A stretch of DNA of 11,495 nt from an uncultured Erysipelotrichaceae bacterium (lineage in GTDB: Bacteria > Bacillota_I > Bacilli_A > Acholeplasmatales > Anaeroplasmataceae): positions 1 through 11,495 of the forward strand of contig CADBQV010000012.1 in assembly GCA_902796895.1 (NCBI GenBank), written 5' to 3'. A program made the translations under genes and the position numbers. The notes under the pieces were generated by a model that had not been told where the DNA came from, did not search any database, and saw only the letters and a list, made by a program, of their open reading frames with translations. This document shows, piece after piece, positions 2,889-9,681 of the stretch. Each line of letters opens with the position of its first letter. Within the stretch, counting starts at the first letter, position 1.

Positions 2889-4823
2889 ATGAGAAGAAAA
2901 AGAACAAATCGTATTAGAGCGTTTTATTATGCTCATCCATATTTAGTTATTTTTAATATTTTAATTATTTATAATATAGCAATTATTTTGTTATTTTCAT
3001 TATTACTTGCATACTTAAAGGATGGAACAATTAATTCTGATAATTACTTAAAGGCAGTACAATACTGTGCTATATATACAATGAATTCAGGAGATATTTG
3101 GTCTGAGGCACCAACATCTGTTGTAACACTTAAAATAATAATTAATACAACACAAATGATTACATTCTCAGGAGCCCTAATAGGTCTTGCTACATCAATG
3201 CTTCAAAATTTATTTAATAGAAGAGTTCATAACTTGGGTAAGTTAAAATTAAAAAATCATTATGTTATTTTAAACTGGTCTCATATTGGTGCTAATTTAA
3301 TTAAAGAATTATCTTATATGAGTGGTAAAAAAACAATTGTTATTTTATCTTCTAAGGATAGAGATGAAATAAATGAAGAAATAGATAATATGTTTATGGA
3401 ATCTAATATTGAAAGAAAAAATATTAGAATATTCGTTAAGCATGGCCTTCCTTCATCAAGAAAGGCATTAAAGGAAATAAGTATTGAAAAATGTGTTTCA
3501 GTAGCATTGCTTTCTAATGCTACATGGTTAAATTCAAAGACATTAAATGATGCTGATTCATTTAAAATATTAATGTCTATTTTAAGTATTAATAAAAATG
3601 CTAATGTAATAGTAGAGGTTAATAATGATAAGGTATCTAAAGAAATTGATGATTTAATGCTTGCAAGTACTGATTTAAAGAATGCAAATGTATCAATTTT
3701 TTCAAGAAATACAATTGTAGGACATGCGTTAGGTAGAGCTGCAATTAACACTTCATTTGCTGATTTATATTATTATTTACTTTCATATGAAGGTGGTAGC
3801 TTCTTTTCAGTTGATAAAAAATATGATTTATCAGAAGCATTAAAAAGATATAATAAGGCTTTGCCTATTACAACTTATAAAGAAGATGATGGTGAAAAAT
3901 TATATTTATATTCTAAAAATGATTTTAGCTTTGAATCTTTAACAAGAAAAGAAACTAATAAGACATTAGATTTTAAAAAGAATTTATTAAAGAATAATTT
4001 TACATTATTTGTTATTGGAGATAATGATAGATCAAATTCAATACTTGATGTATGTGATAACCATAATAGAATAAAAGATGGTAAGATTAAATGTAAGATA
4101 TATCCAACTGATGTTGATATTGATTTATTAATGGATGATATATCTAAAGCAACAGGTAGAAAAAAGGTTTTAATATTATCAGATGAAAATGCATTAGCTG
4201 ATGAACAAGATAATAATGTATTTTTAAGTTTAATTAAGATTAAAACAAATGAAAAATATACTCACGATATTGAATTATTTGCTGAAATATTTGATCCTTC
4301 ATCAAGATTTTCTTTAGATAGCTTAAATGTATCAGGTATGATTATTTCAAATGAAATGGTAGCTTTATATATAGCACAATTATTAACTCATCCTAAATCA
4401 CATAAATTCTATGAGGATTTATTAATTAGAAATTATGAATCTCAGGATGCTAAAATTGATTTTGATGTTAGAATGGCTAAGGAATTAATAAATATTAAAG
4501 ATGAAATAACATTTAATTCAAAATTAGAATTTATAAATGCATTATATGAATCAAGTAATCATGAATATATGCCAATAGGCTTTGTTGGTGAAAATAAGAA
4601 GAAAAACATGATTGAAAATGTAACATCAGTAATTGATGCTGCTGTAAATGTAACTGATAAGATGATAAATACAATTACAAACGCACTAACATTATCAGAT
4701 TCACCAACTGATTCACCTATTAATAAGGCTAATATTGTAATACTTGATAATAATATTAGAAAGCAAGAAAAGATAGTTATTAAAAAGGATACAATTATTG
4801 TTTTAGTTCATTATAATGTATAA
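2889..4823 (+). CDS. CASTOR/POLLUX-like ion channel with two TM helices and RCK-type domains
   Basis: The protein has 644 residues. A basic N-terminus (MRRKRTNR) is followed by TM1 (about 18-42), a pore-loop region (about 52-75) and TM2 (about 79-105). Next comes a Rossmann-like RCK/TrkA-N region starting NHYVILNWSHIGANLI (123-138), with a second similar region from about 370 (FTLFVIGDND). The C-terminal end (IIVLVHYNV) resembles the end of bacterial relatives of plant CASTOR/POLLUX channels. The canonical potassium filter TxGYGD is missing; TMNSGDI (64-70) occupies its place, so ion selectivity is uncertain. The start follows GAGGTAAG (2878-2885). A candidate promoter lies just upstream and the methyltransferase gene begins 12 bases downstream, suggesting cotranscription. 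Gating ligand is unknown; RCK domains commonly bind nucleotides or ions. Family assignment is from memory of motifs. Confidence 0.75.
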   Translation: MRRKRTNRIRAFYYAHPYLVIFNILIIYNIAIILLFSLLLAYLKDGTINSDNYLKAVQYCAIYTMNSGDIWSEAPTSVVTLKIIINTTQMITFSGALIGLATSMLQNLFNRRVHNLGKLKLKNHYVILNWSHIGANLIKELSYMSGKKTIVILSSKDRDEINEEIDNMFMESNIERKNIRIFVKHGLPSSRKALKEISIEKCVSVALLSNATWLNSKTLNDADSFKILMSILSINKNANVIVEVNNDKVSKEIDDLMLASTDLKNANVSIFSRNTIVGHALGRAAINTSFADLYYYLLSYEGGSFFSVDKKYDLSEALKRYNKALPITTYKEDDGEKLYLYSKNDFSFESLTRKETNKTLDFKKNLLKNNFTLFVIGDNDRSNSILDVCDNHNRIKDGKIKCKIYPTDVDIDLLMDDISKATGRKKVLILSDENALADEQDNNVFLSLIKIKTNEKYTHDIELFAEIFDPSSRFSLDSLNVSGMIISNEMVALYIAQLLTHPKSHKFYEDLLIRNYESQDAKIDFDVRMAKELINIKDEITFNSKLEFINALYESSNHEYMPIGFVGENKKKNMIENVTSVIDAAVNVTDKMINTITNALTLSDSPTDSPINKANIVILDNNIRKQEKIVIKKDTIIVLVHYNV

Positions 4824-4835
4824 ATAGGAAATATT

Positions 4836-5720
4836 ATGATAACAAAAGAAGAATACATTGAATTAATAAAAAAAGAATACCCAAATGATTATTTAGATAT
4901 TATAAATGGATTAACTGAAAAAAGATTAAGCTCATTTAGAATTAATAATTTAAAATGCAATAAGGATTTAGTTATATCTTATTTGAATGAAAATAATATT
5001 AAATATGAAATATCTAATATTTATGATAATTCTATTATTTTAAATGAAGATGTTAATCTTTTTGATAGTGATTTAGTAAAAAATGGATATATCTATTTTC
5101 AATCAATTTCAAGTCAAATACCCCCTCTTTGTATGGATTTATCTGATTCTTTTGATATTTTAGATATGTGTGCAGCACCAGGAGGTAAGACATCATTAAT
5201 TGCAGATTTAACGAATAATAAAAAAAGTATTATGGCAGTAGAATCTAATAAGATTAGATATCTTAAATTAGTTCATAATCTAGATTTATTAAATGTTAAA
5301 GCGAGTGTAATTCAAAATGATTCATTAAAGCTTGATTCATATTTTAAATTTGATACTATCTTACTTGACGCACCGTGCTCTGGTAGTGGCACAATCAATT
5401 TGAATAATGATAAGGATTTAAAGAATTTTTCTACTTTATTAGTTAAAAATTCTTCAAATATTCAAAAGAAATTACTAAAAAAAGCATTAGAATTATTAAA
5501 GCCTGGTAAGACTATGATTTATTCAACATGTTCAATTTTTAAAGAAGAAAATGAAGATGTATTAAAATCAGTTTTGAATAAAAATATAGTGCTTGAAAAA
5601 ATAGATTTAAATATTGATGAATCTAATATATTACCATCAAGCTTAGATTTTGCAATTACTATAAAGCCAAACAAATATTATGAAGGTTTTTTTATAGCAA
5701 AAATTAAAAAGATTAAATAA
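4836..5720 (+). CDS. RsmB/NOP (NOL1/NOP2/Sun) family RNA cytosine-C5 methyltransferase
   Basis: The 294-residue protein should transfer methyl from S-adenosylmethionine to C5 of a cytosine in rRNA or tRNA. The SAM-binding motif I is DMCAAPGGKTS (110-120), motif IV is LDAPCSGSGT (177-186) with Cys181, and motif VI is YSTCSIFKEENED (229-241) with Cys232. In this family the motif VI cysteine is the nucleophile and the motif IV cysteine assists product release; both are present. FRINNLK (34-40) matches the conserved segment before the catalytic domain. It lacks the NusB-like N-terminus of RsmB and the extra C-terminal domain of RsmF, so it is a short core-only member and its target base cannot be named. 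SD AGGA (4826-4829). It is the last gene before a strong terminator. Confidence 0.9.
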   Translation: MITKEEYIELIKKEYPNDYLDIINGLTEKRLSSFRINNLKCNKDLVISYLNENNIKYEISNIYDNSIILNEDVNLFDSDLVKNGYIYFQSISSQIPPLCMDLSDSFDILDMCAAPGGKTSLIADLTNNKKSIMAVESNKIRYLKLVHNLDLLNVKASVIQNDSLKLDSYFKFDTILLDAPCSGSGTINLNNDKDLKNFSTLLVKNSSNIQKKLLKKALELLKPGKTMIYSTCSIFKEENEDVLKSVLNKNIVLEKIDLNIDESNILPSSLDFAITIKPNKYYEGFFIAKIKKIK

Positions 5721-5773: not shown

Positions 5774-5802
5774 TTGAATATAGATATCATTTTTGATATA
5801 AT
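5774..5802 (+). promoter_or_regulatory. Sigma-A-type promoter with extended -10 for the gdpP-rplI / dnaB / prfA operon
   Basis: TTGAAT (5774-5779) and TATAAT (5797-5802) have a 17-base spacer, and TG (5794-5795) adds an extended -10. Predicted start is near 5809, giving a leader of under 20 bases before the ATG at 5827. No room remains for a riboswitch. Confidence 0.85.
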
Positions 5803-5826
5803 TAAATAGATTAGGGGTGAAGAGTG

Positions 5827-8292
5827 ATGTTACTATTAATTTTCAGTTTTATATTCTTTGCATCATTTGTAGTAAGTGGCTATTTATCATACCACTATAT
5901 CTACATCCAAGAAAATAAAATTTTAGTATCAGTATTTATTTTAATTACAGTTTTGTCATTGGTAGCGACATTAATTTTCTTTTTCAAATTCCTTAGTAAG
6001 AAAAAGAATGATGAGATAAAGGATTTATCTGTAAGACTTAAAAAATGGTCAAATATTTCATACCATGCATCAAAGGCAGGAGATGAAGCATTTAACGAAT
6101 TACCAGTAGGTATCATTCTTTATGATGAATCATATAACATTACATGGAGTAATGGTTACGCAAGAAAAATATTTAATAATCAAATTATTGAAGATACAAG
6201 TGTTGATTTAACTAATATCGAATCATTGTCAAAAGAATTATTAGAACAAATTATGGTTCAAAAGGATATATTCCTATATGATTATTATTCTAAATCATAT
6301 GATGTTATTCATAATATTGAAAATAATATCTTATATTTCTTCGAAGTTACAGAAAGAGAAGAGATAAAGAAAAGATATAATGATAGAATCACTGGTGTAG
6401 GTATTATTGAAATTGATAACCTTGAAGAATCACTTAAAAAATTTGATATGCAAGAAAAAGCAAACATCAGAGGTCAAATTTTAGGTGAGGTATCAGATTA
6501 TATCGCAAGATATGGTTGTTATTTAGTTTCTGTATCAGGAGATAGAATGCTTATAATTATTGACCAAGAATCATTAAATAAAATGATGGCTGATAAATTT
6601 AGTGTTTTATCACAAGTTAGAGATATTTCACAAAAGAATAGACTTAAAGCAAGTATCTCAATGGGTATTGCTTGTCACGATGTTGAATATGATGAACTTG
6701 GTAGTATCGCTCAATCAGCAATAGAGCTTGCTGAAAAAAGAGGTGGTGACCAGGTTGTTGTTAATATCCAAAATAAAAAGATTCAATTCTTTGGTGGTAA
6801 TACAAACTCACTTGAAAAGAATACATTAGTTGAAGCACGTATGCAAGCTATGAACTTAAAAGAAGCAGTTGAGGGAAGCTCAAACGTTTTAATTATGTGT
6901 CATAATTTTGCAGACTGTGATGCCTTAGGTTCAATGCTTGGTGCATACCATATGGTTTCATCATCAGGAATTGAAACAAAGATGGTTTTTGATCCTAAAA
7001 AATCAGATGCTACAGTTAATAAGATTGCTGGAGATTTAATGAAAGACCCAGTTATATCTGAATATTTTATTACTGTTGATGAGGCCTTAGCTAGATTAAA
7101 GCCTACAACATTATTACTTATTACAGATACACAATCTCCATCCTTAGTAATGTTTAAAGAGGTATTAGAGCGTGCTCAAAGAATATCAATTATTGACCAC
7201 CATAGAGCAGGTGATCAAGGATATAGTAATTATTTAACTTATTATGTTGAAACAAGTGCTTCATCAGCAGTTGAATTAATTACTGAAATGTTTATGTTCT
7301 ATAATCCTGGTATTACAGTATCAAATAGAGAAGCATCAATTATGCTTGCAGGTATTATTGTTGATACTAATAACTTTACAATGCGTTCTGGTACAAGAAC
7401 ATTTGAAGCAGCAGCTACATTAAGAAGTATGGGTGCTGATATGATATTTGTTCGTCAATTATTACAAGAACCACTTCAAGAAGAAAAGATGCTTGCTGGT
7501 GCCTTAATGAAGGCTGAATTAGTTGAAAATAGATTTGGTATTGTTTGTCTTGATGAAGACGAAAAGATCAAAGATAGAACAACACTTGCTAAAATTTCAG
7601 ATAGATTACTTACTATATCTGGTATTAAAGGTTCATTTACAATTGGTAGAATTAATGAAAATTTAGTTGGTGTATCAGCTAGAAGCTTAGGCGATGATAT
7701 AAATGTTCAATTAATTATGGAAACAATGGGTGGCGGTGGACATTTCAATAGTGCCGCTGTTCAAAAAACAGGTAAAACTATTTTAGAGGTTAAAGCTGAA
7801 TTAATTGAAATTTTAAAAACTGAATTTGCAGATGGAGGTAGTGAAAAAGTGAAAGTTATATTAACTGCAGACGTTAAAGGCAAAGGTAAAAAGAATGATA
7901 TTATAGAAGTAGCAAATGGATATGCTAATTACTTAACAACAAATAATTTAGCAGTAAAGGCTACACCTGAAAACCTTGCTGAATTAGATAAACAAAAGGC
8001 TTTAGTAAAAAAAGAAGCTGAAAGTAAACGTAACGTTTTAAAGAAATTCAGAGATGAAATTGATGGAAAAACAATTACATTAAAGATTAAAGTTGGTGCT
8101 GGAGGAAAGAACTTCGGTCATATTACAACTAAGCTTGTATGTGATGAATTTGAAGCACAAACTGGTATTCACCTAGATAAAAAGAAGGTTGAACTTCCTG
8201 GTGAATTAAACTCAATTGGTATCTTTACTGCAACAGTAAAATTAGATACTGATATTGTTGCAAACTTCGAAATTAAAGTAATAGAAAAATAG
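5827..8292 (+). CDS. gdpP: Fused cyclic-di-AMP phosphodiesterase GdpP and ribosomal protein bL9
   Basis: The frame encodes 821 residues from ATG 5827, chosen over the in-frame GTG one codon earlier because AGGGGTGA (5813-5820) is better spaced. Two TM helices (about 2-22 and 31-56) are followed by a PAS-like region (about 85-175), a degenerate GGDEF (about 185-315, SGDRM in place of GGDEF), a DHH domain with HNFADCDALG (359-368), D434, DHH (457-459) and D513 in IVDTNNF, and DHHA1 with MGGGGHF (634-640). This is the full GdpP/YybT layout, a membrane enzyme that hydrolyses c-di-AMP. At 675-821 a complete bL9 follows: VKVILTADVKGKGKK, NGYANYL, LAVKATPENL, KNFGHITTK, DKKKVELP. In Bacilli gdpP, rplI and dnaB are usually separate neighbours; here no stop separates the first two. 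Motif II reads DTQSPS where DTHRPS-like sequence is usual. dnaB starts 12 bases downstream. Confidence 0.9.
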   Translation: MLLLIFSFIFFASFVVSGYLSYHYIYIQENKILVSVFILITVLSLVATLIFFFKFLSKKKNDEIKDLSVRLKKWSNISYHASKAGDEAFNELPVGIILYDESYNITWSNGYARKIFNNQIIEDTSVDLTNIESLSKELLEQIMVQKDIFLYDYYSKSYDVIHNIENNILYFFEVTEREEIKKRYNDRITGVGIIEIDNLEESLKKFDMQEKANIRGQILGEVSDYIARYGCYLVSVSGDRMLIIIDQESLNKMMADKFSVLSQVRDISQKNRLKASISMGIACHDVEYDELGSIAQSAIELAEKRGGDQVVVNIQNKKIQFFGGNTNSLEKNTLVEARMQAMNLKEAVEGSSNVLIMCHNFADCDALGSMLGAYHMVSSSGIETKMVFDPKKSDATVNKIAGDLMKDPVISEYFITVDEALARLKPTTLLLITDTQSPSLVMFKEVLERAQRISIIDHHRAGDQGYSNYLTYYVETSASSAVELITEMFMFYNPGITVSNREASIMLAGIIVDTNNFTMRSGTRTFEAAATLRSMGADMIFVRQLLQEPLQEEKMLAGALMKAELVENRFGIVCLDEDEKIKDRTTLAKISDRLLTISGIKGSFTIGRINENLVGVSARSLGDDINVQLIMETMGGGGHFNSAAVQKTGKTILEVKAELIEILKTEFADGGSEKVKVILTADVKGKGKKNDIIEVANGYANYLTTNNLAVKATPENLAELDKQKALVKKEAESKRNVLKKFRDEIDGKTITLKIKVGAGGKNFGHITTKLVCDEFEAQTGIHLDKKKVELPGELNSIGIFTATVKLDTDIVANFEIKVIEK
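7834..7838 (+). promoter_or_regulatory. Internal Shine-Dalgarno site for bL9
   Basis: GGAGG, extended to GGAGGT, lies inside the GdpP-coding part, where it encodes Gly-Gly. It ends 10 bases before the in-frame GTG at 7849. This spacing is at the long end of the usual range but workable. Confidence 0.65.
7849..8292 (+). CDS. rplI: Ribosomal protein bL9, probable internal-start product nested in the gdpP-rplI fusion
   Basis: Starting at the in-frame GTG gives 147 residues, the usual length of bL9, and the GTG aligns exactly with the initiator of the standard MKVIL start (here GTG-Lys-Val-Ile-Leu). bL9 binds 23S rRNA near the L1 stalk and influences reading-frame fidelity. The N-terminal rRNA-binding domain shows DVKGKGKK (682-689 of the fusion) and NGYANYL, with one residue fewer than usual before LAV. 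A connecting helix (about 714-745) and a C-terminal domain (about 746-821, with GKNFGHITTK and KKVELP) follow. An SD-like GGAGGT lies upstream. The other two frames stop at 7839-7841 (TAG), 7842-7844 (TGA) and 7850-7852 (TGA, overlapping the GTG). Use of this start is inferred. Confidence 0.6.
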   Translation: MKVILTADVKGKGKKNDIIEVANGYANYLTTNNLAVKATPENLAELDKQKALVKKEAESKRNVLKKFRDEIDGKTITLKIKVGAGGKNFGHITTKLVCDEFEAQTGIHLDKKKVELPGELNSIGIFTATVKLDTDIVANFEIKVIEK

Positions 8293-8304: not shown

Positions 8305-9681
8305 ATGGCAGAGGTTACAAAAAAAGTCCCATCAGAAATAGAAGCAGAAAAAGGATTACTTGGCTGCGTAATTTTAGATCAAGAATTGCTTGAAGAAGTA
8401 ATAGGCATAATAACTAAAGATGATTTTTTTGAACCAAAGCATGTTATTATCTATTCTTGTATAGAAAATATGTTTAATGAGCATCAACGCGTTGATTTAG
8501 TTACACTAGCATCAATGCTTGAGGCTACAAACAAGCTTGATCAGGCAGGTGGAAGTGCCTATCTTGGTGATTTAGTTGATAAAATTTATAATACTGATAA
8601 TTTAGAATCTTATATAAAATTAATACAGGATGCTACATTCAGAAGAATGGCTATCCAAAAATTTAATGACCTATCACAGCTTGGATATGATCAAACTGTT
8701 AAATCAGAAGATTATTCTGAGCAAGTTGAAAAAGCAATATTTGAACTTCAAAGCAACAAAAAGGTTGGTGGCTTTAAACCTATTTCTGTTGTTGCAAGAA
8801 ATGTTAATGAACAAACAAATAATGCTGCTAAAAATGATAGTGATTTAATTGGTTTAAATACAGGATTTTCGAATTTAAATAAAATCACACAAGGATTACA
8901 ACCAGGTGCACTAATAATTCTTGCAGCACGTCCTGCGATGGGAAAGAGTGCCTTCGCACTAAATTTAGCAACAAATATTGCTAAATTAAATCACCCTCAT
9001 GTAGAAGATGCTGCAAATACAAATGCTAGAGTTGCATTTTTCTCACTTGAAATGTCAGCAGAGCAATTAGTTGAAAGAATGATTGCTTCAGAAGCTTCAA
9101 TTCCACTTGGCGATATTAAAAATGGTAAGATGGAAAAAACATCTTGGATTAGATTTAATACAAGCTGTAAAAATTTAGAAGAATATAACATTTTCTTTGA
9201 CGATGCATCAGATACTTCTGTATCATCTATTAGATCTAAATGTAGAAAATTAAAAACAGAAGATGGCTTAGATGCTATAATTATTGATTATTTACAATTA
9301 ATATCTTCTGATAAAAATGGTCAAAGAGATTCAGAAATGGATAAGGTTACTAAGATTTCACGTAGCTTGAAATTATTAGCTCGTGAGCTTGAAGTACCTG
9401 TTATTGCACTTTCTCAATTATCACGTGATGTTGAAAAAAGAGAAGATAAGCACCCAACTATGGCCGACTTACGTTCTTCAGGTTCTATTGAACAGGATGC
9501 CGATATTGTAATGTTCTTGTATAGAGATGATTATTACAATAAAGCATCTGAAAGAAAGGGCGAGGCCGATTTAATCATTTCTAAAAACAGAAGTGGTTCA
9601 ACTACAGAAGCAGATGGAATGCCTTTTTATTTCCAAGGAAAATTCCAAAGATTTACAGAAAAGAAGAAAGACGAGGAATAA
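8305..9681 (+). CDS. dnaB: Replicative DNA helicase DnaB
   Basis: The 458-residue protein is the hexameric helicase that unwinds DNA ahead of the replication fork (called DnaC in B. subtilis). The N-terminal domain (about 5-150) opens with PSEIEAEKGLLGCVILD (9-25). The RecA-like domain has GLNTGFSNLNKITQGLQPG (183-201), Walker A AARPAMGKSAF (207-217), SLEMS (247-251) with catalytic Glu249, Walker B IIIDYLQL (325-332), ALSQLSRDVEKR (368-379), DLRSSGSIEQDAD (388-400) and the arginine-finger region KNRSGS (427-432). A short extra segment, about 229-240 (NHPHVEDAANTN), follows the Walker A helix. No intein interrupts it. GAGGAG (8294-8299) precedes the ATG, 12 bases after the rplI stop, so it is cotranscribed with the fusion gene. 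Confidence 0.97.
   Translation: MAEVTKKVPSEIEAEKGLLGCVILDQELLEEVIGIITKDDFFEPKHVIIYSCIENMFNEHQRVDLVTLASMLEATNKLDQAGGSAYLGDLVDKIYNTDNLESYIKLIQDATFRRMAIQKFNDLSQLGYDQTVKSEDYSEQVEKAIFELQSNKKVGGFKPISVVARNVNEQTNNAAKNDSDLIGLNTGFSNLNKITQGLQPGALIILAARPAMGKSAFALNLATNIAKLNHPHVEDAANTNARVAFFSLEMSAEQLVERMIASEASIPLGDIKNGKMEKTSWIRFNTSCKNLEEYNIFFDDASDTSVSSIRSKCRKLKTEDGLDAIIIDYLQLISSDKNGQRDSEMDKVTKISRSLKLLARELEVPVIALSQLSRDVEKREDKHPTMADLRSSGSIEQDADIVMFLYRDDYYNKASERKGEADLIISKNRSGSTTEADGMPFYFQGKFQRFTEKKKDEE

Follow-up and report, generated by a model that had tools for sequence, protein, structure and literature searches.

In bacteria, infB, cheA and clpB are examples of genes in which a second start in the same frame gives a shorter product. 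For gdpP, the gene of the c-di-AMP phosphodiesterase, a close association with a ribosomal protein gene is described in Streptococcus pyogenes, where it is co-transcribed with rpl9 and holB (accessible part of PMC3711813). The fusion of GdpP with bL9 is itself already known to annotation, and a database search for this architecture, suggested by the first-pass annotation, finds it catalogued as the NCBIfam entry NF011110 (PRK14538.1, 'putative bifunctional signaling protein/50S ribosomal protein L9'), which has the same full-length architecture as the gene considered here. Literature searches for PRK14538, or for a bifunctional signaling protein with L9, returned nothing, nor did those for c-di-AMP with phytoplasma and Acholeplasma. 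The accessible parts of PMC3711813, PMC11229311 and PMC10720645 hold no mention of a GdpP-L9 fusion, those of PMC3335287 and PMC3750655 hold nothing found to bear on it, and no text on the fusion or on an internal L9 start was found in the open-access literature searched. According to the accessible part of PMC4014445, gene fusions in Mollicutes are marked in its supporting tables, and the GdpP-L9 fusion may be listed there.

The reading argued for here, in which we have good though not full confidence, is that the locus is a two-product gene. It would encode both a GdpP-L9 protein and a free bL9, having arisen by one old loss of a stop codon, with the L9 tail kept for use and the two jobs split after duplication in some relatives.

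The fused gdpP-rplI frame

The window (the whole stretch of DNA that was analysed, 11,495 nucleotides) contains on its + strand a single open frame running from an ATG at 5827 to a stop codon at 8290-8292 and encoding 821 residues, with a GTG at 5824, one codon upstream, as an alternative start. The uninterrupted frame for GdpP and bL9 (5827-8292) that had been noticed at first is thus confirmed as open. Its product reaches 733.7 bits against NF011110 (cut-off 707), residues 31-821 aligning with model positions 49-835 of 838. The proposed domain succession also stands, all Pfam models scoring above their gathering scores: PAS_GdpP (residues 82-174), the degenerate GGDEF_GdpP (194-318), DHH (353-510) and DHHA1 (581-665) follow each other in GdpP order, and are followed by Ribosomal_L9_N (675-720) and Ribosomal_L9_C (739-819).

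The GdpP part (5827-7848, + strand) starts with two hydrophobic segments, read by eye near the N-terminus, and ends in a short linker; helices are predicted at residues 2-28 and 31-90, and a solved structure entitled 'Cyclic-di-AMP phosphodiesterase' (9n0l_A) matches residues 88-669. The nested rplI (7849-8292, + strand), for a putative free bL9 of 147 residues, has GTG as the codon of L9 residue 1 and matches TIGR00158 with 100.1 bits (cut-off 58.6) over model positions 1-147 of 148, in agreement with the 147 residues counted originally. The statement that the two parts meet with no linker is nearly right, save for the few residues 669-672, which the structure model places, at pLDDT below 50, as a short joint between the last DHHA1 helix and L9. 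L9-like secondary structure follows this low-confidence stretch. The model was built from 32 sequences and has a mean pLDDT of 81.7, its pTM of 0.39 making the placement of the domains uncertain.

Individual residues were checked against the relevant motifs, the catalytic aspartates and histidines of DHH and the glycine-rich GGGH of DHHA1. H359, D363, D365, D434, H458, H459, D513 and G636-H639 are invariant in 32 aligned fusions, and D457 is present in at least 90% of them. Because most of these catalytic residues are invariant, the GdpP part is probably active as an enzyme. A DAC synthase domain was found in eight of nine genomes tried, the exception being the window's own draft genome (1.45 Mb, 79% complete), in which one L9 was found.

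Upstream of the fusion, a candidate gdpP-rplI promoter (5774-5802, + strand) combines TTGAAT, a 17-nt spacer and TATAAT, with TG before the second hexamer, and matches the consensus at 10 of 12 positions. It is weak evidence on its own, since the scan yields no more sites than chance (14 in the region, with 16.5 expected). Downstream, the next gene is dnaB (8305-9681, + strand; TIGR00665, 489.3 bits, cut-off 385.25). Elsewhere in the window, 879-1916 encodes a GGDEF protein (107.9 bits) whose GGDEF motif is intact by eye, an indication that this lineage signals through c-di-GMP as well as c-di-AMP. The stretch 2889-4823, two genes upstream of gdpP, encodes a protein of 644 residues that resembles a channel subunit, with a Slo-like_RCK match (27.6 bits, cut-off 24) and, on inspection by eye, a hydrophobic region towards its N-terminus. 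The gene between them (4836-5720) encodes an RsmB/F-type rRNA methyltransferase of 294 residues that matches NF011494 (RsmB) from about position 165, below the cut-off; the usual N-terminal part seems absent.

Age, spread and origin of the fusion

L9 was found in 39 of 40 genomes, the window's own included, and since all 39 lie within a long fused frame, the fusion is not a sequencing accident. Across the window's own order, L9 is present in 153 of 160 genomes (own included), and each of these, among the matches listed, has the fused frame, either whole or as a fragment truncated close to the end of a contig. Two of them, G004 and G015, have a lone-frame L9 besides the fusion, and no genome of the order has an unfused L9 alone among the matches listed. 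The seven genomes lacking an L9 profile match are six that are less than 90% complete, plus G053 (93% complete), with a gdpP fragment alone. In the class sample, again among the matches listed, fused members occur in families f9, f16, f19, f23 and f24 and unfused members in f7, f12, f15, f17, f22 and others, the fusion being shared by the order of the window with five families outside it. A recent or artefactual fusion is ruled out, relatives in ten families having it.

All 120 matches listed, of 2792 passing in the protein collection, have the same six Pfam domains, and the relatives include Acholeplasmatales metagenome genomes, Anaeroplasma bactoclasticum ATCC 27112 and a Candidatus Izemoplasmatales genome. 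The gene of A. bactoclasticum has GGAGG and an ATG at its L9 start. Phytoplasmas are presumably members of the same clade. The fusions outside the order, together with those of G004 and G015, match most of the length of NF011110 and score below its cut-off. Stops counted by the profile search inside some fused matches (e.g., G034, G042, G300 and G329) were dismissed, the frame from GdpP into L9 being open in the fetched loci. Frames of 397 residues in G286 and G339 had hinted at a fusion of another type. For G286 this was rejected, its gdpP and rplI occupying different frames and the open stretch upstream being due to chance. In the small-genome relative G089, two L9 matches, at C1:328029-328166 (+) and C1:454421-454558 (-), lie in two distant frames of 874 residues, which probably represent two copies of the fusion gene on one contig.

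In a quickly made tree of GdpP parts (86 rows), two state changes are required, and the unfused family f7 branches from an open fork within the fused group. A 53-row tree, calculated without f10, f11, f21 and f23, places its 40 fused rows on one side of a branch with a support of 78, which f7 adjoins. With this moderate tree support, the simplest reading is a single old origin with at most one reversion; f7 may have regained a stop or may simply be the sister group.

The unfused relatives indicate how such a frame could arise. In 20 of 27 unfused loci, the gdpP stop and the rplI start after it overlap or are at most 3 nt apart, and in 10 of the 27 the stop codon ends past the first base of the rplI ATG. 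Because the ATG follows the stop so closely, the ribosome-binding site of the unfused rplI overlies the end of gdpP. Five of the 27 have an in-frame TAA 3 nt before the rplI ATG, so that the fusion is likely to be obtainable from the unfused arrangement by the loss of one stop. Most likely this would have happened once, long ago, when a gdpP stop near the rplI ATG was lost.

The first-pass annotation had considered a neutral loss of the stop codon, and as an account of the origin this agrees with the five loci that are one stop away. As an account of the upkeep of the frame, it fits poorly. If the read-through were harmless, the free L9 alone would matter and the tail of GdpP would be neutral baggage carried since the loss; a stop regained in f7, if this family is not a sister group, would speak for it. 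The linkers speak against it: from 172 distinct eight-codon linkers, connected by 477 substitutions in a near-neighbour spanning tree, and with 7.9% of single changes leading to a stop, about 41 stops would be expected and none was seen, a rough count in loci that were chosen as fused. The absent stops are not accounted for by a requirement for free L9, because such stops are compatible with L9 expression. Neutral upkeep is distinctly unlikely in our estimation, also with regard to the tail comparisons given below. The frame would rather have been held open since its origin by a use of the L9 tail in the full-length protein.

A conserved internal start at L9 residue 1

The junction DNA carries a feature absent from the first-pass annotation, namely a ribosome-binding site and, after it, a GTG as the first codon of L9. 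The internal Shine-Dalgarno GGAGG (7834-7838, + strand) lies within the final codons of GdpP and precedes the L9 start by 10 nt, and its duplex energy with the anti-Shine-Dalgarno is -10.6 kcal/mol. Conservation was assessed from 182 fused loci (G034 appearing twice), of which four with a second L9 nearby were set aside, leaving 178; with 19 further loci, and G034 counted once, these make 196 single-L9 genomes, which are related rather than independent and were chosen from genomes already listed as fused.

All 196, the window included, have a start codon at L9 residue 1 (ATG in 176, GTG in 19 and TTG in one), counting one locus, L124, after a one-codon shift, its ATG standing one codon before the automatic alignment. 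When residue 1 is valine, as in 17 of the 178 loci, the codon is always GTG, compared with a mean of 15% GTG among the valine codons of those frames. The internal site has a median duplex energy of -9.3 kcal/mol and reaches -4 kcal/mol or stronger in 190 of the 196; five of the six weaker ones belong to the small-genome genus g24, whose 26 genomes have a median of -5.5 kcal/mol. By comparison, 3301 other in-frame ATGs of the 178 loci have a median of -0.9 kcal/mol, and the L9 start is strictly the best Shine-Dalgarno site of the whole frame in 150 of the 178. When the last seven codons are reshuffled synonymously, the mean energy is -6.67 (SD 0.14, lowest of 200 at -7.02), against an observed value of -8.79. 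Exact GGAGG motifs are distributed over the three codon phases as 65, 25 and 1 among the 178 loci, and because they fall in different phases, it is the nucleotides, and not one peptide, that are conserved. The internal start codon and Shine-Dalgarno site are, thus, conserved as expected from the sequence of a two-product gene.

Translation from 5827 would yield the c-di-AMP phosphodiesterase GdpP with a C-terminal bL9 domain, and internal initiation on the same mRNA, through the Shine-Dalgarno site at 7834-7838 and the GTG at 7849, would yield free bL9 for the ribosome. A separate internal rplI promoter was considered and rejected, a weak consensus scan of the + strand giving no promoter-like match from 6587 up to the start of L9. 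Folding at the internal start is not unusual either (z -0.29).

The initial proposal was that L9 is borne as a tail on a membrane protein and could tether ribosomes. Taken strictly, this means that the fusion alone is made and that ribosomes carry L9 as a GdpP tail, hence bound to the membrane. It agrees with the single L9 of the window's own genome (79% complete) and with a frame that stays open throughout the 196 fused genomes examined, but gives no reason for the conservation of an internal start with its Shine-Dalgarno site; furthermore, the membrane enzyme would need to equal the ribosomes in number. These points, together with the genomes described below, make a membrane-tethered ribosomal L9 a most improbable reading.

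Second rplI copies and the role of the tail

Five relatives have a second, free rplI just downstream of the fusion: G004 and G015, of the window's own genus (g1), and G408, G414 and G420, of genus g89 in family f9. Because an L9 tree places the copies inside their own lineages, two duplications are indicated, in a tree of few columns for which the program flagged long branches that come together at the second-rplI copies. They constitute a natural experiment of two duplication events in five genomes. In all five, the fused copy has an internal site no stronger than -2.4 kcal/mol, compared with three of the 196 single-L9 genomes, and in the three g89 fused copies the start codon at L9 residue 1 is also gone. 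The free rplI copies have their own sites, at -5.7 to -10.3 kcal/mol. A reading with the fusion as sole product offers no reason for the site to vanish beside a second rplI.

The fused tail is still in frame in all five genomes and shares 36-43% identity with the free L9 of the same genome. Gly24 (a rounded 100% of 223 L9s) and Gly90 (96%) are lost in all five tails and retained in all five free copies, a further point against ribosomes carrying L9 as a GdpP tail. At 27 L9 columns, conserved in at least 85% of 223 other L9s, the tails depart 8-10 times and the free copies 3-5 times, other rows having a median of 1 and a maximum of 8.

Selection on the tails was estimated as dN/dS by NG86 throughout. 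For the pair G004-G015, the tail has a value of 0.115 (bootstrap 0.060-0.192), next to 0.151 for GdpP and 0.133 for free L9. For G414-G420, it has 0.327 (bootstrap 0.195-0.511), next to 0.153 and 0.157, i.e., this tail is partly relaxed, at about twice the values of GdpP and free L9, yet well below 1. The comparisons with G408, in which tails share 35-40% identity, are near saturation and unreliable (G408-G414: tail 0.57, GdpP 0.50, free L9 0.38; G408-G420: tail 0.92, GdpP 0.49, free L9 0.43). Judged by these sequences, the tail is hardly made except within GdpP in the second-rplI genomes, and it is still selected in the close pairs. The high tail values against G408 speak for neutral baggage; those of the two close pairs, where the tail can hardly be made outside GdpP, speak against it. 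The first-pass annotation had envisaged, as counter-evidence to its reading, a second rplI beside a freely diverging tail. The outcome is mixed and mainly contrary to this: the second copies do occur, in these five relatives, but the tails of both close pairs are under purifying selection, divergence from the distant G408 being too great for judgement.

Two other members of genus g89, G238 (97% complete) and G444 (65% complete), yield no L9 match at a threshold as loose as E 10. A full-length gdpP-L9 match is likewise missing from both, with a partial one of 26.7 bits in G238, while a DAC domain is present. L9 and GdpP functions seem to have been lost together there, in relatives of two-L9 genomes.

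We infer that in single-L9 genomes both products are made. The two rplI duplications would have separated their jobs, one copy serving as free L9 while the fused one, its internal start site gone, retained a tail for which not all conserved L9 residues would be needed. After duplication, the tail would most likely be a structural or binding module of GdpP, and it probably has a non-ribosomal role in scaffolding, in RNA or polysome sensing, or in tethering. The most modest of these readings is a structural role or acquired dependence, in which the tail serves the folding or stability of GdpP alone and has no regulatory meaning. This special case of the two-product explanation is quite possible, if short of probable: purifying selection in spite of the missing Gly24 and Gly90, and an L9-like module on a short linker in the structure model, are in its favour, whereas the GdpP of unfused relatives does without a tail. 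Sequence cannot separate it from a regulatory role, nor does the model, with its uncertain domain placement, assist.

A coupling between translation and c-di-AMP breakdown, also put forward initially, may exist. The boldest reading, rather unlikely in our view, makes the tail a translation sensor throughout the clade, which would bind ribosomes, polysomes or rRNA-like RNA and set c-di-AMP breakdown, while the same gene makes free L9 in a fixed relation. Duplication would then have freed the tail from the ribosome and turned it into a dedicated regulatory domain. A binding role is conceivable because bL9 has a reported role in polysome organisation in Mycoplasma pneumoniae and reported mRNA binding in Pseudomonas (accessible part of the review PMC10931766).

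Whichever role the tail has, a ribosomal protein gene nested in frame within a signalling enzyme, and kept clade-wide (including Anaeroplasma), is unusual. One gene would carry two functions under conflict, which the two later duplications seem to relieve, and this can be tested by comparison. An annotation with one fused protein at this locus misses the likely source of free bL9.

Compared with known systems, the gdpP and rpl9 genes of Streptococcus pyogenes are likewise neighbours, but have a stop between them, whereas the frame of the window runs through. NF011110 describes the same protein from end to end; its family name, unlike the present reading, holds no internal start and no free L9. 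The nested two-product reading and the function-separating duplications appear to be new. In having one frame, two starts, and a long and a short protein, the gene as proposed resembles infB, cheA and clpB; unlike in these, its shorter protein would be an entire ribosomal protein and its longer one a signalling enzyme with that protein attached, two proteins encoded elsewhere by separate genes.
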